The position numbers and the translations under genes were made by a program. Source: Singulisphaera sp. (lineage in GTDB: Bacteria > Planctomycetota > Planctomycetia > Isosphaerales > Isosphaeraceae). From it: a stretch of DNA of 33,780 bases. Location: NCBI GenBank assembly GCA_027451445.1, contig DAIDJG010000052.1:1-33780 (forward strand), read 5' to 3'. The notes under the pieces were generated by a model. That model ran no database searches. It was given only the letters and a program-made list of their open reading frames with translations, and was not told where the DNA came from. This document shows, piece after piece, positions 6,601-27,918 of this stretch; the stretch's first letter is position 1, and every line of letters begins with the position of its first letter.

Positions 6601-7573
6601 CGTTGTTCACGTTCCCCTGAATGGTCGTGGCGGTGCCGGCTGATGTGCCATCGATTTGATAGGTTGCGCCGGTGCCGGGGAAATCGCTGTTACCCAACGC
6701 CCCCTTGATCTCAAGCGCAACCACTCCGTCGCCGCCGGGCGCTGTTGCCCCCGTGTAATTGATCGGTGCAAGCGAGAATCCCGTGAAGGACGACGCGGTG
6801 AGAGTCGACGTTCCGGCCCCGCCGTCCGTGGAGTCGTCGAGCGTGAGCGTGGCCTTCCCCGTCGGATCGGAGATCGAGAGCGCGGAGCTGATGTTGACCA
6901 GGTTTCCGGCATCGCCCACGTTGATCTGGCTCGTTCCCCCTCCTGCAACCACGTTCACGGGCGAATCGGTGCCGGTTGTCAGGATGTTGTAGGTCGAGCT
7001 GCCCGAACCGCCATCGATCGTGATTCCACCGTCTTCGGCCGTTTGGGCGCTAATCGCGACGGAGTTCCCTCCGGGACCGTGGAACGACAGACCGTCGAAT
7101 TGATAGGTCGCGCCGGTGAGCTTCGCGGCGCTATCATCGATCGTGAGTGTACTCCCAGCGGCCGGAGTTCCACTCACGTTGAACTGAGCCTTCAGGGTGC
7201 TCTCCGGACCGGCCGCGGTTCCGAGCGTAATCGATTCGACTCCGTTCCCCTCAATAAGATTGACCGTTGAGGTCGAACTGGCCGCGAGCGTGCCTGGAGG
7301 ACCGCCGCTCGCGTTCCAGTTCGTCGAGAATGCGCTCCCGTTGACGCTGTACTCGAGCAACCCTCCGCTCTGGTCGATCACCAGGGTGTCATTGCTTTTA
7401 TTGCCCGTCACCGTCGCCGTGTTACCAGTAAGCGCGAACGTGTAAGAGAGCAGCGTGCGCGACTCCAGGCCCTCAAACACCGCCACCCAGCGCCGAGACT
7501 GACTACGACGTGCCGCTAGCCGCTGCGCGCGCGGTTTGGTCTCGGGACGCTTATCTTGCGAGTGGGCGCTCAT
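698..7573 (-). CDS. Giant secreted repeat protein with PKD-like tandem repeats and a beta-helix
   Basis: This 2291-residue protein starts at an ATG preceded by AGAGGA at good spacing. The basic N-terminus ends in 'GLESRTLLS' (about residues 35-43), like the LEPR-XLL motif at the start of many planctomycete exported proteins; there is no classical hydrophobic signal peptide. Residues about 44-527 are Gly/Thr/Ser-rich beta repeats. Ten tandem units of 134 residues begin at residue 528, each opening with a DFTATINWGDG-type PKD-like motif; the last begins at 1734. Next come a CSLREA-like segment (SLRAAILEANALPGPDTI, about 1840-1857) and parallel beta-helix repeats (GNxISGN patterns, about 1870-2260). 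The protein ends in a basic His/Lys-rich tail. It is probably a cell-surface or secreted adhesin-like or carbohydrate-interacting protein; its ligand is unknown. Confidence 0.9.
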   Translation of the reverse strand: MSAHSQDKRPETKPRAQRLAARRSQSRRWVAVFEGLESRTLLSYTFALTGNTATVTGNKSNDTLVIDQSGGLLEYSVNGSAFSTNWNASGGPPGTLAASSTSTVNLIEGNGVESITLGTAAGPESTLKAQFNVSGTPAAGSTLTIDDSAAKLTGATYQFDGLSFHGPGGNSVAISAQTAEDGGITIDGGSGSSTYNILTTGTDSPVNVVAGGGTSQINVGDAGNLVNISSALSISDPTGKATLTLDDSTDGGAGTSTLTASSFTGFSLAPINYTGATAPGGDGVVALEIKGALGNSDFPGTGATYQIDGTSAGTATTIQGNVNNDTFLVGTNSGLQALPGPLSIDGGGGTDSLSVADPGVTGNTYTLGPTTLTASGFGGLTYTGIASLSVDLRENSGTDVVDINGIAASQSATVQVSGAQDSVNLTGLGVPSTSTLNLFSGGGSTFTLDAGGADFQASSSDAPGRLTYGVNGAIPVSSIGFDPVDIINLPDQSLSTATANVQGTAGIPLNNVPVGTFTDSDPIGKAADFSATIDWGDGTPASVGQVQADSGVPGNGFQVVGSHTYLNGGNYTITVTVHDNGSSGTQTINSVSVTTSDKGGQSATIVDPPANISPGSPVIVIRPDLPLSGTPVTLAGGTVGTPLTNVVVGKFTDSDTFGVATDFTATINWGDGTPASSGVIQADSALSGNGFDVLGSHLYVTSGRFRITVTVLDHGSSGTTLNRGVLTTFEDTGGQTATINDPATTIAPATPVTVTRPDLPLTSSPVTVASGTVGTTINNVSVGTFTDSDTFGVASDFTATINWGDGTPASSGVIQADSSVPGNSFEVLGSHLYVTSGNFTITATVVDHGSSGTILINGVPTTFTDTGGQTTTITDPPTTIVPATPVTVNRTDLPLTSTPAMPAGGTVGTPLNNVTLGSFTDTDTFGVVGDFTATINWGDGSPTSTGVIQADTSLPGNSFDVLGSHLYVISGNFTITVTIKDNGSSGTVSINGVPTTFTDTGGQSTTITDPPTAIAPAQPVTITRADLPLTPTPVTLAGGTVGTPLTNVLVGSFTDTDPFGKAGDFTATINWGDGSPTSAGVIQADSNLPGNGFDVFGSHLYVVSGNYPITVTVTDHGSSGTESINGVPTTFTDTGGQSTTIVDPPTTIAPATPVTVTRSDLPLTPMPVTLPGGTVGTPLTNVVVGSFTDSDTFGKAGDFSATINWGDGTTTSTGVIQADSALAGNSFDVLGSHLYVKSGTFLIMVTVHDNGSSGTTVINGVPTTFTDTGGQSATILDPPTTIAPATPVTINRTDLALTPTPVTLANGTVGTPLNNVVVGTFTDTDPFGVATDFTATINWGDGTATTTGQIQPDSALAGNSFEVLGSHLYVVSGAFPITVTVQDNGSSGTQTINGVPTTFTDTGGQSTTISDPAITIVPATPVTTTRTDLPLTPTPVTLAGGTVGTPLTNTLVGTFTDSDPFGKAGDFTATINWGDGTPSSTGVVQADSALSGNGFEVLGTHLYVVSGNFAITVTVLDNGSSGTQNINGVPTTFIDTGGQSATITDPATTIAPAQPVTITRSDLALTPTPVTLPDGTVGTALSNIVVGTFTDSDPFGKAGDFTATINWGDGTPASTGVVQADSALSGNGFEILGSHLYVVSGNFAVSVTVQDHGSTGTQNINGVPTTITDTGGQSATIADPPVAIAPAQPVTITRADLPLSGTPVSIPSGTAGFALNNIVVGAFTDSDSFGKAGDFTATINWGDGTLPSTGQIQAQTSASGNSFQIQGSHTYAFAGVYTVTVNVVDNGSSGTQSIDGVPTTFTDKGGQTATIVDPGTVINPRGPIVVTTTADLVNGAPAKGSLRAAILEANALPGPDTIIFDIVPQTAVEDIKLNATLPAVTDSVVIDATTQPGYQGRPIVALDGSATQGDGLTFNVGNSTVKGLDVGGFSGAGIHLAAGSGDLIQNSEIGTDASGLNAFPNGVGILIDGAFVSTIGGTSAGAGNAISGNRTAGIYINGLASSGTRIEGNNIGTNALGNSAIVQPGISNPVQALQNTGIVIVGAQANMIGGTSAAMRNLISGNYVGVTFVNTSPVNPNQLLGNWIGTDSSGMRPLSNIVGVYVNGASGNVIGAPGLANVISGNTSVGVEIVGSPSTANIVQGNLIGVAADGLTAFRASNGTFLQQTGVFVQDASGNAIGEPGAGNTISGNELAGVYVLSSSSTAAGNVIQSNILGAGQGGAPGPGNAGYGVLLFNASNNQVVQSGAAANAFYRNGVANIRVFTGPLSATRTVIHQVTKKHPAHRAAKKHPHG
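2100..5992 (-). repeat. Ten 402-bp tandem repeats inside the giant gene
   Basis: The DNA for the conserved 'NWGDG' segment recurs with exact 402-bp spacing: the block CCCCAGTTGAT or a close variant starts at 2349, 2751, 3153, 3555, 3957 and onward to about 5967. Unit 1 begins at 5992 on the minus strand and unit 10 at 2374. Unit 10 runs into the CSLREA-like segment near 2100. Length is invariant with no indels between units, and the central units are near-identical in protein, suggesting recent duplication or ongoing gene conversion. Confidence 0.9.
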
Positions 7574-21200: not shown

Positions 21201-21527
21201 GTTCAGGCGATCCCTGCTCCATCGTGTTGATCGCAAACTCGCGTACGGTTCCGTGTCTCAACCGTCGTTTCGCGCGAAAGCCAGGGCCTCCGTTGCCTTT
21301 CGTCGGCGTTCGCGTTGTGGGATTCGGCGCATGAATCGCCCTGCGGGGGTATCCGAATCGAAAGTGTCCCAATTAAGCTCTCAGTCGCGTGGGCTCGATG
21401 ATTGCCAAACGCGATTCAGGTGAGTATTATTCGTTCCATATTGCCATGGAGAAGCGACAAAAAAAAGACACTTCACCCCTGGCCGACACTCTTCGTTGCG
21501 AGACGTACCGGGAGGAGAGCCGCCCAG
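21201..21527. other. Intergenic region with a strong promoter
   Basis: This 327-bp gap follows the SDR gene. The first 200 bp hold nothing I recognise and no clear terminator. A good promoter lies at 21402-21430, and the last 20 bp carry the ribosome-binding site GGAGGAGA of the next gene. A longer frame opening at about 21402 overlaps the promoter and should not be taken as the protein start. Confidence 0.6.
21402..21430 (+). promoter_or_regulatory. Sigma70-type promoter for the PilT-like/KaiC-like operon
   Basis: TTGCCA (21402-21407) and TATTAT (21425-21430) are separated by exactly 17 nt, each with five of six consensus matches. The predicted start of transcription is near 21437, giving a leader of about 90 nt before the ATG at 21528. 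It is the best-matching promoter seen in the window. Confidence 0.6.
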
Positions 21528-23321
21528 ATGAGCGCCTTGAACAGTGCATCCGGGAATGCGGAGGAGGGCCTGCTTCTACCGGGATGGTATTTGGATGTCG
21601 ACGACTACACGTACTATGTCAGTCGAAACACGGCAACGACAATCGTCGATCTCTCGTCTCATGTTTCCAAGTACGAGATATTGCTGGGCGATCCTGCGTT
21701 TTCGACGGATAAGTATTCCGCCTCGTCCGGGGGTGGAGTCCATTGTCCCGACAATCCAGTGCCTAAGCTGGAGTCTTGCAACAGTTGCCGGCTATTGATC
21801 TGTAAGGCGTATGCAGGCGAAGAGATCGCAGTCACCGCGCGGCGACTTGCGAAGCCTCAACACCCGGGATCGTTCGAGAAGCGCAAGGACCCCGAGTCAT
21901 GGGAGGTTGGGGCAACCGGGTTCGTGAAGGCTCCGGACTCGGCCGATGTACCGTTTCCCGTGCCGATCTCAGCCGTTTGTGAAGAGCTCGACAAGCTTTT
22001 TCTCAACACACCGAAGCCGTCAGGGCTGATTCTTGTCTCGGGCGCCACAAACAGCGCGAAAAGCGAGCTTACGCGCGGTCTGATCGCACGGCTGATCAAA
22101 CGCCAGGTCGACGTCAAAGGTGAACGTTGGCCGCACCTGGTGACCTATGAGGACCCGATTGAGAAACGGTTTTTCCCCGATAGCAAAACGGCATTGACCC
22201 ACGGGGTGGAATATACCCCCCGACAAAAGGGTGTCGATGTCGGCTCCCTGGAATCGGCGTTCAACGACGCTCTCCGCCAAACGCCATCCGTCTTTTACGT
22301 TGGCGAAGTTCGTGAAGATGCGGATTGGAAGGAACTGATGCGGTTTGCCGGCACGGGGCACCTCATCGTCGCCACGGCGCATGCCGGCTCGCTGGTCGAG
22401 GCAATGGAGCGAGTGTTCCGTGGCATGCAGGCCAAGACCGCAGCCGACCGTGGGCAAATCGCCGCGCGCGTCCTTGCTGTAATCCATCAACGCAAGTTTG
22501 ACCTCTCGGACGACCTGCGCAAGAAGCTCCACTCTCCCAAGTTTGAATTCGAACTCTCGGACGACCAGCGCACGAGGCTCATGTCACCCAAGTTTGAATT
22601 CGAACTCTCCGACAGGTTTCAGTTCGATGTTCTCTTGCCGACCATTTGGCGCCGCACTTCGGCGGGCGTTGCGGCCTTGGTGGGCGACGGACTTGGCTCA
22701 GTGCTGCCGAACCGCCCAGGCGTTCATCAGTCCCAGGGGGGGCCAAGCAGCCTTGGGCGCCAATATTTCGCGGCGGCTCTCAGGAACCCGAACGCCTGGC
22801 AGGACCTTTTCATCGTTGATCTCCTCGGCACCATGCTCGAAAAACGCCTGCGTGCGGATATCGGCAAACTTGATAGCGAGGCGCAGAAGGTCTGGAGTTC
22901 AGCGGCCGGTGGTGATCGAAAGCAGTGGAAGGCCTGTGTTTCGCTCGCTTACCTGATCGTTCGCCTGTGGCGTGATGTGCTCCGGACCGCAGGCACGACG
23001 CGGGGCAGAAATGCGGCTTTCAAGGAGGTCGCGTCGCGCCTGCGCGACAACGGCCCTGGACTCGACGGTTCGTCGAAGGTCACACATAGCATCTGGAAGG
23101 GCCTCGCGGCCGCGAAAGTGAGGTTCGAACGGCCCGACATACCGGGTGAATCGGCGCACAATGCCGACGTCGTGGATTGGCTGCGCCTGATCATGCTGGC
23201 GGTCGCCGAGGATCGCCCGCAGATGGAGAAGCTCGCCGCGACGGCGGAGTTGGCCGAGGAGCAAGGTGCCTGGGCGCTTTTCCAAGCCGAAGCGATCCGG
23301 CTTGATCTCATGGGAGAATAA
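21528..23321 (+). CDS. PilT/VirB11-like secretion-type ATPase with Cys motif and C-terminal extension
   Basis: The protein is 597 residues from the ATG at 21528, preceded by GGAGGAGA. An N-terminal region of about 160 residues is not recognised but holds four cysteines (C73, C84, C87, C92; C-x10-C-x2-C-x4-C), a possible metal site. The ATPase core follows: Walker A 'GATNSAKS' (172-179, with Ala where Gly is usual), Asp box 'VTYEDPIEKRF' (about 205-215), 'PRQKGVDVGSLESAFNDALRQTPSVFYVGEVRE' positions 231-263 with Walker B glutamate E260, and His box 'GTGHLIVATAHAGS' (H278, H285). These match PilT and its relatives. An insertion of 17-residue repeats (322-363) follows the core. The last 190 residues are helical and unrecognised. 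No pilus genes are nearby; it heads an operon with the KaiC-like gene 6 nt downstream. Confidence 0.85.
   Translation: MSALNSASGNAEEGLLLPGWYLDVDDYTYYVSRNTATTIVDLSSHVSKYEILLGDPAFSTDKYSASSGGGVHCPDNPVPKLESCNSCRLLICKAYAGEEIAVTARRLAKPQHPGSFEKRKDPESWEVGATGFVKAPDSADVPFPVPISAVCEELDKLFLNTPKPSGLILVSGATNSAKSELTRGLIARLIKRQVDVKGERWPHLVTYEDPIEKRFFPDSKTALTHGVEYTPRQKGVDVGSLESAFNDALRQTPSVFYVGEVREDADWKELMRFAGTGHLIVATAHAGSLVEAMERVFRGMQAKTAADRGQIAARVLAVIHQRKFDLSDDLRKKLHSPKFEFELSDDQRTRLMSPKFEFELSDRFQFDVLLPTIWRRTSAGVAALVGDGLGSVLPNRPGVHQSQGGPSSLGRQYFAAALRNPNAWQDLFIVDLLGTMLEKRLRADIGKLDSEAQKVWSSAAGGDRKQWKACVSLAYLIVRLWRDVLRTAGTTRGRNAAFKEVASRLRDNGPGLDGSSKVTHSIWKGLAAAKVRFERPDIPGESAHNADVVDWLRLIMLAVAEDRPQMEKLAATAELAEEQGAWALFQAEAIRLDLMGE
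22491..22616 (+). repeat. Short tandem repeats within the PilT-like gene
   Basis: A 51-bp unit beginning CCCAAGTTTGAATTCGAAC starts at 22536 and again at 22587. A related 45-bp copy starts at 22491 and lacks 6 bp. In protein this gives KFDLSDDLRKKLHSP, KFEFELSDDQRTRLMSP and KFEFELSDRFQFD. It sits where PilT has a short loop after its Gln-rich strand, so the loop has probably grown by local duplication, keeping the frame. Confidence 0.85.
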
Positions 23322-23327
23322 CCGGCC

Positions 23328-24713
23328 GTGTCGACTCTTTCCGCTTCCGGGCCGTCGCCGAACTTACCGGTACAAGACCAATTCATTACGTTCGGCATCC
23401 CCTCGCTCGACGAGCTCCTGGGACGGCCGACGACGGCTCTCGATCCTACGTCGAAGGGGAACTTCGGACTCTATCTCGACAACTGCAATCAGTCGACAAG
23501 CATTTGCATTGTCGGTCCCGACGGCACCGGGAAGTCTGTGCTGGCGCTCCACCTGGCTGCGCAGTACGCAGCGATGGGAAACGAGAACACGCGCGTCTTT
23601 TACGCGTCGTCTGACTTATCGTTCACCAAGACGGTCGCTACATGGGTGAACTTCGCTCTCGGACTGCCCGCGACCCGGCTTTCCGAACCGGCCAAGATCC
23701 AACCTTTCGGCAGGGTCGACTACGGAGCCTTGAACGCGACGCTCCGCGTTTGGCTGGAGCGTTACCTGCCGCTCATTCCCGGTGATGTCTCGTTCGACCG
23801 TCGTGGATCTGACGACGCTTCGCCCGCCGGGAGACCACTTCCCGCGTATCTCATCGACAAGCCTCGGCGGACCTACACGCAGGACGGGCTGAAGGAAGAA
23901 CGGCACTACGTCGGGTTTATCGACCTCGAATCATCCACCGCAGGGGACGATTGGGGCCTCATCAACCGAATGCTTGCCACGATCGACGTCCCCAGCGCGA
24001 ACAGCGCCCGCCATATGCTGATCATTGACGCCGTCGAAGGGCTTCAGGCCTTCGGTGGCGACAGCGACGCCTTCGGACACGGACGCGACCGACGGTCCCG
24101 GATCGCCCAGGTCCTCCGTGCCGCCAAAGAAAAGTGTCACGTCGTCTTCGTCGTCGAAGAGCCTCGGGATCAGGAGCGTCTGCCCGAACAATTCGTGAGT
24201 GACGCCGTCATCCGGCTGCGCGTGGAACGCTCGCATGGATACGCGAGACGGACAGTCGAGATTGAGAAGCAGCGCGGACAAGGGTTCGTCCGAGGCCGGC
24301 ACGATTGCCTGATCCGCCGAGGCACCGGCTCGAGTACCGGCACGCACACGACCTGCTACAACCCGGACGACAAACCTTACAACGTGCCGGGAATCGTTCC
24401 GGTCGGCGCGAACGTGCCTCCCGAGAAGCCCTGCGCCAAAGCCTACTTTGTCGTCGTCCCCTCACTCCACTTCCTGAGCCGCGAGCTCATGGAAGCGCCC
24501 GGTGCGAAGAACGCGGACTCCCGGCTCAACCGGAACGAAAACAACTCCGACGGATTCTGCGGCACGGGCATCCCTTATCTCGACGACATGCTGGGTGACC
24601 AGGGTCGCCGCGCCCGATGCGTCCGCGACGCGGCAGCCGTCCGCGCCCTCGACACCGCAAGCGACGCCGAAGGTTTCCCATGGGGATCGATTTCATCACT
24701 CATCGGTGACTAA
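23328..24713 (+). CDS. KaiC-like ATPase, N-terminal part, ending at a stop inside the second P-loop
   Basis: This 461-residue frame begins at a GTG six bases after the PilT-like stop codon. It holds a complete KaiC/RecA-type domain: Walker A 'GPDGTGKS' (63-70), Walker B 'HMLIIDAVEGL' (229-239), and the KaiC-style end 'VIRLRVERSHGYARRTVEIEKQRGQGF'. A second domain then opens (GFCGTGIPYLDDMLG, 409-423) and reaches 'WGSISSLIGD' (452-461), where a TAA ends the frame. The next codons, in the same frame, continue 'GTHKSRVGRAF', completing a degenerate P-loop. The stop therefore falls inside a motif and the gene is most simply one 1278-codon unit running to 27164. Nonsense mutation, sequencing error and readthrough are all possible. 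Confidence 0.85.
   Translation: MSTLSASGPSPNLPVQDQFITFGIPSLDELLGRPTTALDPTSKGNFGLYLDNCNQSTSICIVGPDGTGKSVLALHLAAQYAAMGNENTRVFYASSDLSFTKTVATWVNFALGLPATRLSEPAKIQPFGRVDYGALNATLRVWLERYLPLIPGDVSFDRRGSDDASPAGRPLPAYLIDKPRRTYTQDGLKEERHYVGFIDLESSTAGDDWGLINRMLATIDVPSANSARHMLIIDAVEGLQAFGGDSDAFGHGRDRRSRIAQVLRAAKEKCHVVFVVEEPRDQERLPEQFVSDAVIRLRVERSHGYARRTVEIEKQRGQGFVRGRHDCLIRRGTGSSTGTHTTCYNPDDKPYNVPGIVPVGANVPPEKPCAKAYFVVVPSLHFLSRELMEAPGAKNADSRLNRNENNSDGFCGTGIPYLDDMLGDQGRRARCVRDAAAVRALDTASDAEGFPWGSISSLIGD
24711..24713 (+). other. In-frame TAA within the second P-loop
   Basis: Aligning the two P-loops, GPDGTGKS (63-70) matches G-D-stop-G-T-H-K-S, so the TAA takes the third position of the second loop. A single base change from codons for Lys, Gln, Glu, Ser, Leu or Tyr would create it. 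Frames on both sides are the same, and coding character continues without interruption. Confidence 0.85.
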
Positions 24714-27164
24714 GGGACCCACAAGAGCCGGGTCGGTCGCGCGTTCCTCGCCCAGGGGTTCCGCCACGAGGACGGCCGTATCGACCCCAATCGAGGCGTT
24801 GCGCTGCTGTTGACCACCCACGACCTCGACTCCGACCGGCTCGCCAAACACTTTGCCCGGCATTACGGTTGCTCCCCCTCGACCCTTAACTTCGGGGACC
24901 GAATCCTTTGCCGCCGCGTCGAGATCCACCACCTCACCGCGGCCGAGCTCTTTCGCATCGTGGCGTTGCTCGTCGAGGAAGGTCTGAAGATCCTGGCTGG
25001 TATCTCCCCGGACTCTACCGCCTGGAACGACCCCTCGAATCCCGGCCGCGTCCGGCTCGTCATCGACGACTGGAGCACGCTACGCGACTCTCACCCCGAG
25101 GTTCGCGAGGATCCCCTCTTCCTTCCTTTTGTGCTCTTTTACCTAAGGCGGCGTGGCGTCACGGTGCTGCTCATCGACACCCAGCCGGGACGGCTGAGCC
25201 ACATCCTCTCCGATGAAAGCGACCGCGAACTTAGAGCGCTTGTGGATCATCATGTCTATACATGGTATGTTACATTCTTCGGGGAAAAGCGAGTCGCGAT
25301 CTCCGCACTTCCGCCGGTGGACAATACCAAGCGAGTCGTCGTCCGCGAGCTCGCTCCCGCTGAGGGGGACAACGAGGCACTCCTCGTCGACCCGAGTTTC
25401 GAGCTTTATCAAGGCTTTGAGGATGACAAGGCGCCGACCCTCGTTCCGCTCAAGGTTCACCTATGCCGCGCGGAAGGCGCGACAGACGCGTATCACCAGG
25501 AGGTGTTTGCCGTCTTCCGCGCGGTCTTCGGCGAAGACGCCAAGGTCGAGTGGAACGACGGCGCGAAGTCCCCTGACGGCGTGCCTCGGGCTGACTACGA
25601 TCAACTCCGCAGCCAAACCTACCTTCGTGGCCGGTCGGCTCTCGAGCACACCCAGGTGCTCCAGGTCGATGAATTCTGGTCGGGTGAGAAGGATTCGGGC
25701 GAAAGTGAGACGCTCGAAGATCTGGCCGACTACCTCGAGGCACCCGTCGTCGACGCGCAGGGTCGCCCAAACCTGATTGAAGATCCCGGCAGATTGTTCC
25801 AGCCACCGCGGAATCGCGACTCCGTCCCTTCGGAACGATTCACACGGTTCTCGACAATCGGGTACAACCTGGGCGATTTCGGGGCGCCGCGGGACCGCGT
25901 TCCGTACTTTGTCGATTTCGGGTTCCTGCTCGCTCGGGAGGATCTCTGGCTCCGTGCCATCGAGAAGGGTGGTGCCGCGAGCCAAAAGATCGCAACGGTC
26001 TGGGACTCGCTGGCCGGATACCCAAAGCCGACAAATCACCGCGACCTCGCGTCCGGGATCGTGACGATCGTATCGTGGCGAGACTTCCTTGAGGCCTGCT
26101 TGGCTGTTGTCGCCTCGAGCGCATCCCCTCCCGGCACCACTGCCCCTGTCGCGTTCGACATCGACCTCACAACCATCGAAAGTCTCTCCTGCCTAGCGCT
26201 CGAAATCCTTGCCAGTGAACTCTACACGTTGGGCGCCGGAGGTGCCGACATATTCCCGAGGCATCGCCACGACGCGATTGGTCCGGGTCTGCTCGACCTC
26301 GCCGGGTCGACGGATCACACCAAGCCCCTTGCGACGGAACGGCGGCGCGCCTTCTACCGGGCTTGGCTGCTCTTGGCGGCGGCCTTCCGTTCGAACGAGC
26401 GATTCACTCGCGAGGGGTTCGAACTGAAGCCCAGGCCCGCGTCTCCACAGGCGGTGGCCTGCCGACACTGGTATTCCACCGCATGCCCAGGGTTTCAACC
26501 TGAGCTCACCCCCATACGACTCCCGGGACACTTTACCGTTCGGGGCGATTGGTTCCTGGCGGTTGCGTCCGGAAGCCGGAGTCGCCGTCTCGGAGAGCGC
26601 GCTATCGACATTTTGACGTCGCGTCGCGCCAATATAAGCCGCATGCAGCTCGGCATCGGACTCCCAACCCGAGGTTTCGACGATCGGGAAACTGCCACAT
26701 GGGAGGACGTCGAGTTCCGCTCTCCCTTAACGTTCTCCTTCGGATTGGATGGTGGTCGTCCCCGGCCCGGTGAGAATTCTGGTCGGCGCCGTTTGCTTTT
26801 CCACGACGTGCTGCGCCTCGGGGGCCAGCCGAGCGTTCCCAAGGTCTTCCTCGGCCAAGAGCCCGCGTTCTTCTGGCTGTGGCGCTCTCGACTCGAATCC
26901 TATGAGCGACACTCGCGAACGTGGCGGAAATGGCTGCTCTACGCCCTCGATGACAGTCTGAACAGTTCCAACAACACGGAGTATCCGGAATTCGCGGACC
27001 TTCAGGGTCCTGAGGCTTTCCTCGCCCTGTACGACCAAGATTTGTCGCCCGGAGCCGTGTTTGAGGGGCCGGTCGTCGACGGCTTCGAACGCCTTCGCGC
27101 CATCTTGAGCGTCGCCCTTGAACGGGCCACATTTCGGATCGGGGAGCGCGTAGGCGGCAAGTGA
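24714..27164 (+). pseudogene. KaiC-like second domain plus solute-binding-protein-like C-terminus (same gene as 23328, after the stop)
   Basis: The frame continues from the TAA for 816 residues. The first possible restart is a TTG at 24810 (784 residues), which would lose the P-loop, and no ribosome-binding site supports it. The second RecA-like domain shows 'ALLLTTHDLDSDRLAKHF' and a Walker B-like 'GRVRLVIDDWSTL'. The next 550 residues resemble family-1 extracellular solute-binding proteins: 'YHQEVFAVFRAVFG', 'TQVLQVDEFWSGE ... LEDLADYLEA', 'STIGYNLGDFGAP' and 'GDWFLAVASGSRSRRLGERA'. There is no signal peptide, so this would be a cytoplasmic binding module. That resemblance is by eye only. 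It is called a pseudogene part because translation needs readthrough or restart; if the TAA is an error, this is an intact enzyme. Confidence 0.6.
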
Positions 27165-27384
27165 GGCGCCGACCCGCCCCGATGCCGAGCGCGATCCCGT
27201 CCAGGTCCGTCGCCGTGACGCCAAATACAATGGCGCTTCTCTGCCGTTTCGAAAAACCCTGCGTCCTCATCCAGCAACGTGAGAGACGCCAGGGACTTGA
27301 TTTTGCCGCCGCAGGCCTCGATAATTCGATTCGTCAGGATCATCTAGATGATTTGATGAGCCTTTTTTCCGTCCGTCCGCTCGC

Positions 27385-27412
27385 TTGACTCGGGCGCGTT
27401 GCTGGCTAAAAT
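27385..27412 (+). promoter_or_regulatory. Promoter for the small gene at 27448
   Basis: TTGACT (27385-27390) and TAAAAT (27407-27412) are spaced by 16 nt, each with five of six consensus matches. The following 40 bp are A/T-rich. Transcription would start near 27419, so the downstream small gene can be expressed apart from the operon before it. Confidence 0.5.
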
Positions 27413-27447
27413 GGTGCTGTTTGTTTTCTCAAAGTTAAATTCGGCGA

Positions 27448-27918
27448 TTGTGGCGGGTTGGTGAAATCGTGGTAAACCGGGGTAGATATTACGGAGTTGT
27501 ACGGCGGTCAGCGGCACCTCAGGCCTGTCCGAGTTCCGCTCAGTTGTTTGAGTGTGCGCAGCGTCGGGCCACGGAGGTCGAGAGGGGACTGATCCCTCTC
27601 TTTGTGAAGTTCGTTGAGACGCGTTATCAGCTTAACACGCTCGACTTTCCGCCGGAAGGCGACCGGGACAAAGCGAAGTCGTCGATTTTGCACGAACTTG
27701 GCGACCTTGGGTCGCTTCTGATTCAAATCGCTCAGGGTCAATCGATTCCCGCTGATGAATTGCAGCGTCGGTATCACAAGCTGACGTTCACGTGTCAACA
27801 CGGTGGTCTGCGACTCGACCGCCCCGACACGATGGGGGAGTATTTGGGACGTCGCCTCGGAGATGAGTTGAATCGTCTCGGAGAGTATCTTAAAGCGCCC
27901 TCTCCTGCCGCCCCTTGA
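27448..27918 (+). CDS. Small helical hypothetical protein (156 aa)
   Basis: The frame opens with TTG at 27448; a GTG at 27469, preceded by GGTGA, is an alternative. I do not recognise the protein. It is mostly amphipathic helix: 'ECAQRRATEVERGLIPLFVKFVETRY', 'KAKSSILHELGDLGSLLIQIAQG', 'ADELQRRYHKLTF' and 'MGEYLGRRLGDELNRLGEYL'. It has two cysteines near the N-terminus and one in 'FTCQHGG', with no clear metal motif. No signal peptide or membrane helix is seen. It follows the PilT-like/KaiC-like pair by 283 bp and appears to have its own promoter, so a functional tie to that pair is possible but unproven. Confidence 0.55.
   Translation: MWRVGEIVVNRGRYYGVVRRSAAPQACPSSAQLFECAQRRATEVERGLIPLFVKFVETRYQLNTLDFPPEGDRDKAKSSILHELGDLGSLLIQIAQGQSIPADELQRRYHKLTFTCQHGGLRLDRPDTMGEYLGRRLGDELNRLGEYLKAPSPAAP

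Follow-up and report, generated by a model that had tools for sequence, protein, structure and literature searches.

The locus studied here raises the question of whether a gene encoding a PilT-type ATPase and the KaiC-like gene directly downstream of it form a unit, and, if so, whether this unit is part of a known system. Both genes are located in a window of 33,780 nucleotides, by which we mean the whole stretch of DNA that was analyzed. A preliminary description had assigned positions 21402-27918 of the window to a single unit, which would combine a PilT-type ATPase with a protein in which two KaiC domains are joined to a solute-binding-protein fold.

The first gene (21528-23321, + strand) encodes a protein of 597 aa when translated from its probable start codon, the ATG at position 21528, with the Shine-Dalgarno-like sequence GGGAGGAGAG located 9 nt before it. 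An in-frame TTG at position 21402, which would result in a longer gene, is a less likely start; it falls on the -35 box of a promoter-like site (TTGCCA-17 nt-TATTAT, 21402-21430, + strand) located 5' of the pair. This site was detected in a consensus scan (10 of 12 matches), which is weak evidence, as the region contained five such sites where 1.2 would be expected. Screening against Pfam and NCBIfam models revealed that the gene 1 product is a member of the type II/IV secretion ATPase superfamily, its score against the T2SSE model PF00437 (E-value 3e-16, 59.4 bits) being above the gathering cut-off of 24.9. It is not a member of the PilT/PilU family proper, because the score obtained with TIGR01420 (9e-22, 77.7 bits) is below the curated cut-off of 319.1. 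The latter alignment covers model positions 120-268 of 343, which correspond to the ATPase core, and leaves the N-terminal PilT region unmatched. Like the PilT and PilU retraction ATPases, the core contains a P-loop (GATNSAKS), an Asp box (TYEDPIE), a Walker B motif with its Glu (VFYVGEVRED) and a His box (GHLIVATAHA); unlike them, the protein has long private extensions at both the N- and C-terminal sides of this core, and there are no pilus genes near. Alignments showed that the four motifs are conserved in all four orthologues described below, and when the PDB was searched with a profile of the first three of them, PilT structures were the closest (4e-19). Weaker matches were obtained with models for plasmid TraJ (1e-13), DotB (1e-10) and VirB11 (9e-6), and also with ComGA. 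A repeat search detected a 51-nt tandem duplication inside gene 1 (22497-22598, + strand), the copies of which are 82% alike and give rise to a repeated LSDDxRxxLxSPKFE stretch in the protein; the insertion corresponds to a gap in the alignment with the relatives, from which it is absent.

The second gene starts with the GTG at position 23328, located 6 nt after gene 1. Up to a premature stop codon, which is preceded by 461 codons (23328-24713, + strand), it encodes a KaiC-like domain, D1, and the start of a second one, D2, and this part matches PF06745 with an E-value of 2.5e-10. The preliminary description was thus right that a PilT-type ATPase gene is followed at this short distance by a KaiC-type gene. 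The remainder of D2 is encoded beyond the stop, in the same frame, by positions 24714-25349 (+ strand). Membership of the KaiC domain family (PF06745, gathering cut-off 26.6) is due to D1 in all cases, with scores of 40.5 bits for the window and 28.1 and 45.0 bits for the orthologues in genomes G448 and G838, respectively. D1 retains a full P-loop and a Walker B motif, which in the window read GPDGTGKS and IIDAVEGL. The P-loop of D2 is degenerate (...GTHKS in the window, where it is accompanied by the Walker B sequence LVIDDW), and what is retained of it is [TG]T[HF]KS. That gene 2 encodes two KaiC domains was borne out by profile-profile comparisons with stand-alone double-KaiC proteins found in Planctomycetota, which are 508-990 aa long at the loci studied. 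These comparisons gave scores of 147.7 for D1 and 86.0 for D2, against at most ~21 for shuffled columns (at most 20.4 for the D2 shuffles). D1 is collinear with the first (CI) and D2 with the second (CII) KaiC domain of these proteins, with which gene 2 therefore shares its two-domain layout; D1 and D2 compared with each other scored 61.5.

A Glu-Glu pair constitutes the catalytic residues of KaiC. As read from the alignment, this position is occupied by S[TS]D in D1 and contains no Glu in D2 in any of the four proteins, and because the catalytic glutamates are missing, the tandem-KaiC protein is probably not hydrolytic. It is also not a KaiC circadian clock protein, since it scored 12 bits against the clock model TIGR02655, for which the curated cut-off is 546, and neither kaiA nor kaiB was recognized within the window. 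Hydropathy analysis did not reveal a signal-like stretch at its N-terminus.

The preliminary description had treated gene 2 as encoding one intact protein, having read across, and missed, an in-frame TAA (24711-24713, + strand) that is evident from the sequence and its translation and interrupts the P-loop of D2 (LIGD*GTHKS). TAA is a normal stop codon here, because it also terminates other genes in the window. Beyond it, a further 816 codons can be read in this frame without interruption, to position 27164, and the identity to the relatives is 34-39% after the stop versus 39-40% before it. Given this uninterrupted and about equally conserved continuation, the TAA reflects either a nonsense mutation that arose very recently or an error in the assembly of the window genome, which is a draft of 622 contigs containing the locus as a single copy; gene 2 is either broken or misread. 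In all three relatives, gene 2 is open across the stop position and consists of one intact frame of 1238-1403 aa. For the window genome only, the chances that gene 2 is a recent pseudogene, with the module dead there and alive in the relatives, are a little under even: the position of the TAA at the P-loop and its regular use as a stop in the window speak for this, but the long and conserved frame that follows speaks against it.

Beyond D2, the frame encodes a C-terminal region of ~600 aa (25350-27164, + strand) that is conserved in four genomes and private to the system. The strongest conserved block in the four proteins, LPGxFxxRGDWFLxxxxGSRS...GxGLPxR, looks by eye like the hinge region found in solute-binding proteins. 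Nevertheless, the solute-binding-protein fold proposed previously did not receive significant support. Pfam searches that listed hits with E-values up to 10 gave no significant match of the region, SBP_bac_1 (PF01547) included, and no PDB entry was matched. For profile-profile comparison with hhalign, a 10-member planctomycete solute-binding family and shuffled controls were used; the best alignment was positioned on the hinge motif and scored 19.9, against a 95th percentile of 20.4 for the shuffles. Motif-block searches for solute-binding similarity remained at noise level, and AlphaFold produced no confident fold, either with one sequence (pLDDT 35) or with three (pLDDT 32.5). The comparison profile was derived from a family of lipoprotein-like solute-binding proteins of ~520-615 aa that is present in Gemmataceae (loci L036, L043, L047, L050 and L058-L061).

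According to the preliminary description, the unit should be given up if the two genes were not adjacent in any other genome. A survey revealed the same adjacency and order in three other Planctomycetota genomes, named G448, G675 and G838, which represent two further families. Among 397 Planctomycetia genomes, the fusion (that is, gene 2 read through its stop) yielded two strong matches, in G448 and G675, each of which is one open frame with a PilT-like ORF upstream of it. A profile of three PilT-like proteins gave scores of 787, 775 and 681 bits in only three of these 397 genomes, namely those with the fusion; no other genome exceeded 86 bits. A profile of the fusion then identified the fourth pair in G838 (737.6 bits; locus L112, 7230-8621 and 8625-12341), which belongs to a second class of the phylum, so that the pair is present in four genomes of two classes. 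The PilT-like gene comes first in 4/4 pairs, and the intergenic spacing is +6 nt in the window, +4 in G448, -1 in G675 and +3 in G838. The four fusions are 33-39% identical to one another, and the four PilT-like proteins 30-38%. Draft assembly does not account for the pair, because G448 is a finished single-contig genome. We conclude that the pair is a real, conserved two-gene module of Planctomycetota and, as had been suggested, a genuine unit; it is undescribed as judged from family libraries and open-access papers, which are a part of the literature.

The module is rare. It is absent from 59 genomes of close relatives and from all 45 genomes examined of the same family, and it was not found in 392 genomes sampled across the phylum. 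The fusion had no match in 72,556 plasmids or in phages or viral contigs, and the PilT-like protein had no match in the same plasmids that spanned most of its length. Genome and viral collections scanned for octapeptides gave no match; the relatives are too divergent for such scans. An initial match of the locus in genome G014 proved to be a chance antisense match. The stand-alone double-KaiC proteins differ from the fusion in that they lack the C-terminal domain and a PilT-like neighbour: a relative of gene 1 was present in 0/12 of their loci, within flanks of 7-19 kb per locus, which implies that the PilT-like partner is tied to the fused form. A tree of the four pairs has a short inner branch that separates G448 and G675 from G838 and the window, a split recovered in 52/60 resamplings for the fusion and without support from the PilT-like gene alone. 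This tree does not demonstrate horizontal transfer, nor does it argue against it, and vertical descent with loss would also fit.

As stated in the preliminary description, no pilus, secretion or clock gene is present among the annotated neighbours in the window, which encode a PKD protein, a sulfatase, an FHA protein, two histidine kinases, NadA, myo-inositol oxygenase, an SDR, a beta-propeller protein, an ECF sigma factor, a protein kinase and a TPR protein. Close relatives have only the myo-inositol oxygenase gene in common with the window, and not the neighbourhood. Downstream of the pair, an orphan ORF of 156 aa (27448-27918) has a GC3 of 0.59, below that of its neighbours. It is preceded by a promoter-like site of its own (27385-27412), matches no family and lacks a counterpart next to the other three pairs; for these reasons it was left out of the unit. 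Of the extent proposed originally, the pair is therefore retained, but the start at 21402 (likely the ATG at 21528) and the last ORF are not.

The neighbours are different at the other loci. The G448 pair, whose GC content is 0.43 versus 0.50-0.53 for its flanks, is located ~2.3 kb downstream of a VirD4/TraG coupling-protein gene, with a ParB-like gene near. These ParB-like and VirD4/TraG genes (L076, 3479-6209) are followed by an ORF for a small DNA-binding-protein-like product (~7186-7472), and probably represent an integrated conjugative or plasmid-like element. The G675 contig begins with a tyrosine recombinase gene, and a large lipoprotein-like ORF of 1183 aa without a Pfam match (L078, 6815-10366) is present immediately 5' of the pair. 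The G838 neighbours are ordinary (RsgA, a subtilase, DUF2752 and a Mur ligase). Within the stretches examined, no third gene is common to the four loci, and neither a platform gene (ArlJ/TadC/PilC-like) nor a pilin gene was found beside the pair. Thus, the neighbours differ and do not make up any complete known pilus, secretion or defence system, which agrees with the earlier placement of the pair outside known systems.

The earlier statement that no described system joins a secretion ATPase with KaiC is not supported. In the archaellum, which is also present in some Chloroflexota bacteria (PMC12488501), the secretion-type ATPase ArlI is stimulated by ArlH, a KaiC-like protein to which ATP binds without being hydrolysed (PMC8978795), and archaeal type IV pilus operons contain KaiC-family genes that are predicted to regulate these pili (PMC4858521). 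The planctomycete pair resembles ArlI-ArlH (FlaI-FlaH) in that a secretion-type hexameric ATPase is encoded together with a KaiC-like protein, and this protein, like ArlH, is probably non-hydrolytic. However, ArlH has one KaiC domain, whereas the planctomycete protein has two and ~600 additional aa, and, unlike in archaellum loci, there are no ArlJ platform, archaellin or ArlF/G genes near the pair. The scores against the archaellum models are 14.4 for ArlH (NF052589, cut-off 215) and 16.8 for ArlI (NF058587, cut-off 550). Because these scores are far below the cut-offs and ArlJ and filament genes are lacking, the pair is not a member of the archaellum ArlI-ArlH system. The archaeal type IV pilus operons likewise encode a KaiC-like ATPase together with a secretion-type ATPase, but there the KaiC-family genes belong to pilus loci, in which TadC and pilin genes are also present.

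By analogy with ArlH and ArlI, we favour, with a probability of roughly 45%, the reading that the module is an ATPase machine made of two proteins, a PilT-like hexamer and a KaiC-like ATP sensor that governs it. Gene 1 would encode a soluble motor of the hexamer type, belonging to the PilT/secretion-ATPase class, and gene 2 a large cytoplasmic protein consisting of two KaiC-like domains, equivalent to CI and CII, and the private C-terminal domain. The two proteins would form one complex, with the tandem-KaiC protein stacked on the motor ring, binding ATP and hydrolysing little or none of it, given that the catalytic Glu-Glu pair is replaced. A ligand of the C-terminal domain may then decide, via the tandem-KaiC protein, whether the motor is on or off, for which ArlH-ArlI provides the precedent. 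A filament-motor job like that of ArlI is not indicated, because no membrane platform or pilin gene was found beside the pair. The rarity, divergence and changing neighbourhoods of the module suggest an optional accessory job rather than housekeeping.

These same features, namely sparse and patchy occurrence, strong sequence divergence despite a fixed gene order and different neighbours in every genome, also speak for the leading rival, a conflict (anti-phage or anti-plasmid) system in which the tandem-KaiC protein would sense an intruder via its C-terminal domain and the PilT-like motor would act as the effector or its loader. The ParB-/VirD4-like genes adjoining one locus, the tyrosine recombinase gene at the start of another contig and the low GC content of the G448 pair are consistent with it. 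EAD-type conflict systems of multicellular bacteria are defined by an effector-associated domain (eLife 2020;9:e52696), but the EAD1 match in our case is weak (E-value 0.097, 13.6 bits versus a cut-off of 24.2) and confined to a C-terminal fragment in a stretch specific to the window, and no nuclease, protease or toxin domain was found. Moreover, PADLOC 2.0.0 gave only marginal P-loop matches for the pair (E-value 0.007 or worse), no defence model being satisfied, and the sole match among the tested neighbours was a weak one of VirD4 to mad8. We consider a conflict system unlikely, at about one chance in four.

It is less probable still that the pair serves transport or DNA handling in integrated conjugative or plasmid-like elements, with a VirB11/TraJ-type ATPase regulated by the KaiC-like protein. 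The TraJ, DotB and VirB11 matches of gene 1 and the coupling-protein, ParB-like and small DNA-binding protein genes near the G448 pair point in this direction, but such genes are missing beside the pair in the window and in G838, and, as described above, the fusion had no match in plasmids, phages or viral contigs and the PilT-like protein none in plasmids that spanned most of its length. The least probable alternative is that the pair regulates the type IV pilus or type II secretion machinery of the cell itself, the PilT-like protein being an accessory retraction-type ATPase under KaiC-like control. This would be in line with the regulatory role predicted for KaiC-family genes in archaeal type IV pili (PMC4858521) and with the presence of other PilT-type genes in all genomes surveyed, but the universality of those genes contrasts with the rarity of the pair, no pilus gene was found near it at any locus, and PilT models align to the core only.

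A partnership between a KaiC-like protein and a secretion-type ATPase is known from archaeal surface motors. The planctomycete partnership seems to work without a filament, platform or pilin gene, its KaiC module is doubled, and it includes a domain that matches no known family. Should this be confirmed, ATP-sensing control of a secretion-type motor would have been reused for another purpose in bacteria. It is conceivable, though we would not bet on it, that the ATPase machine favoured here represents a new bacterial class, in which a catalytically muted tandem-KaiC ring with a new recognition domain of ~600 aa commands a secretion-type hexamer, most likely against mobile elements. Compact intact pairs, one of them in the finished G448 genome, are available for expression and testing.

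Two of the stand-alone double-KaiC proteins (L114, 9232-11016, and L115, 8982-10694) have a degenerate second P-loop (AEPGTRATF), and their second Walker B region, FDNIYRLQDRFP, resembles the sequence DDWxxxQDxFP in D2 of the fusion. Judging from these similarities, they are possibly the nearest relatives of the KaiC part of the fusion.
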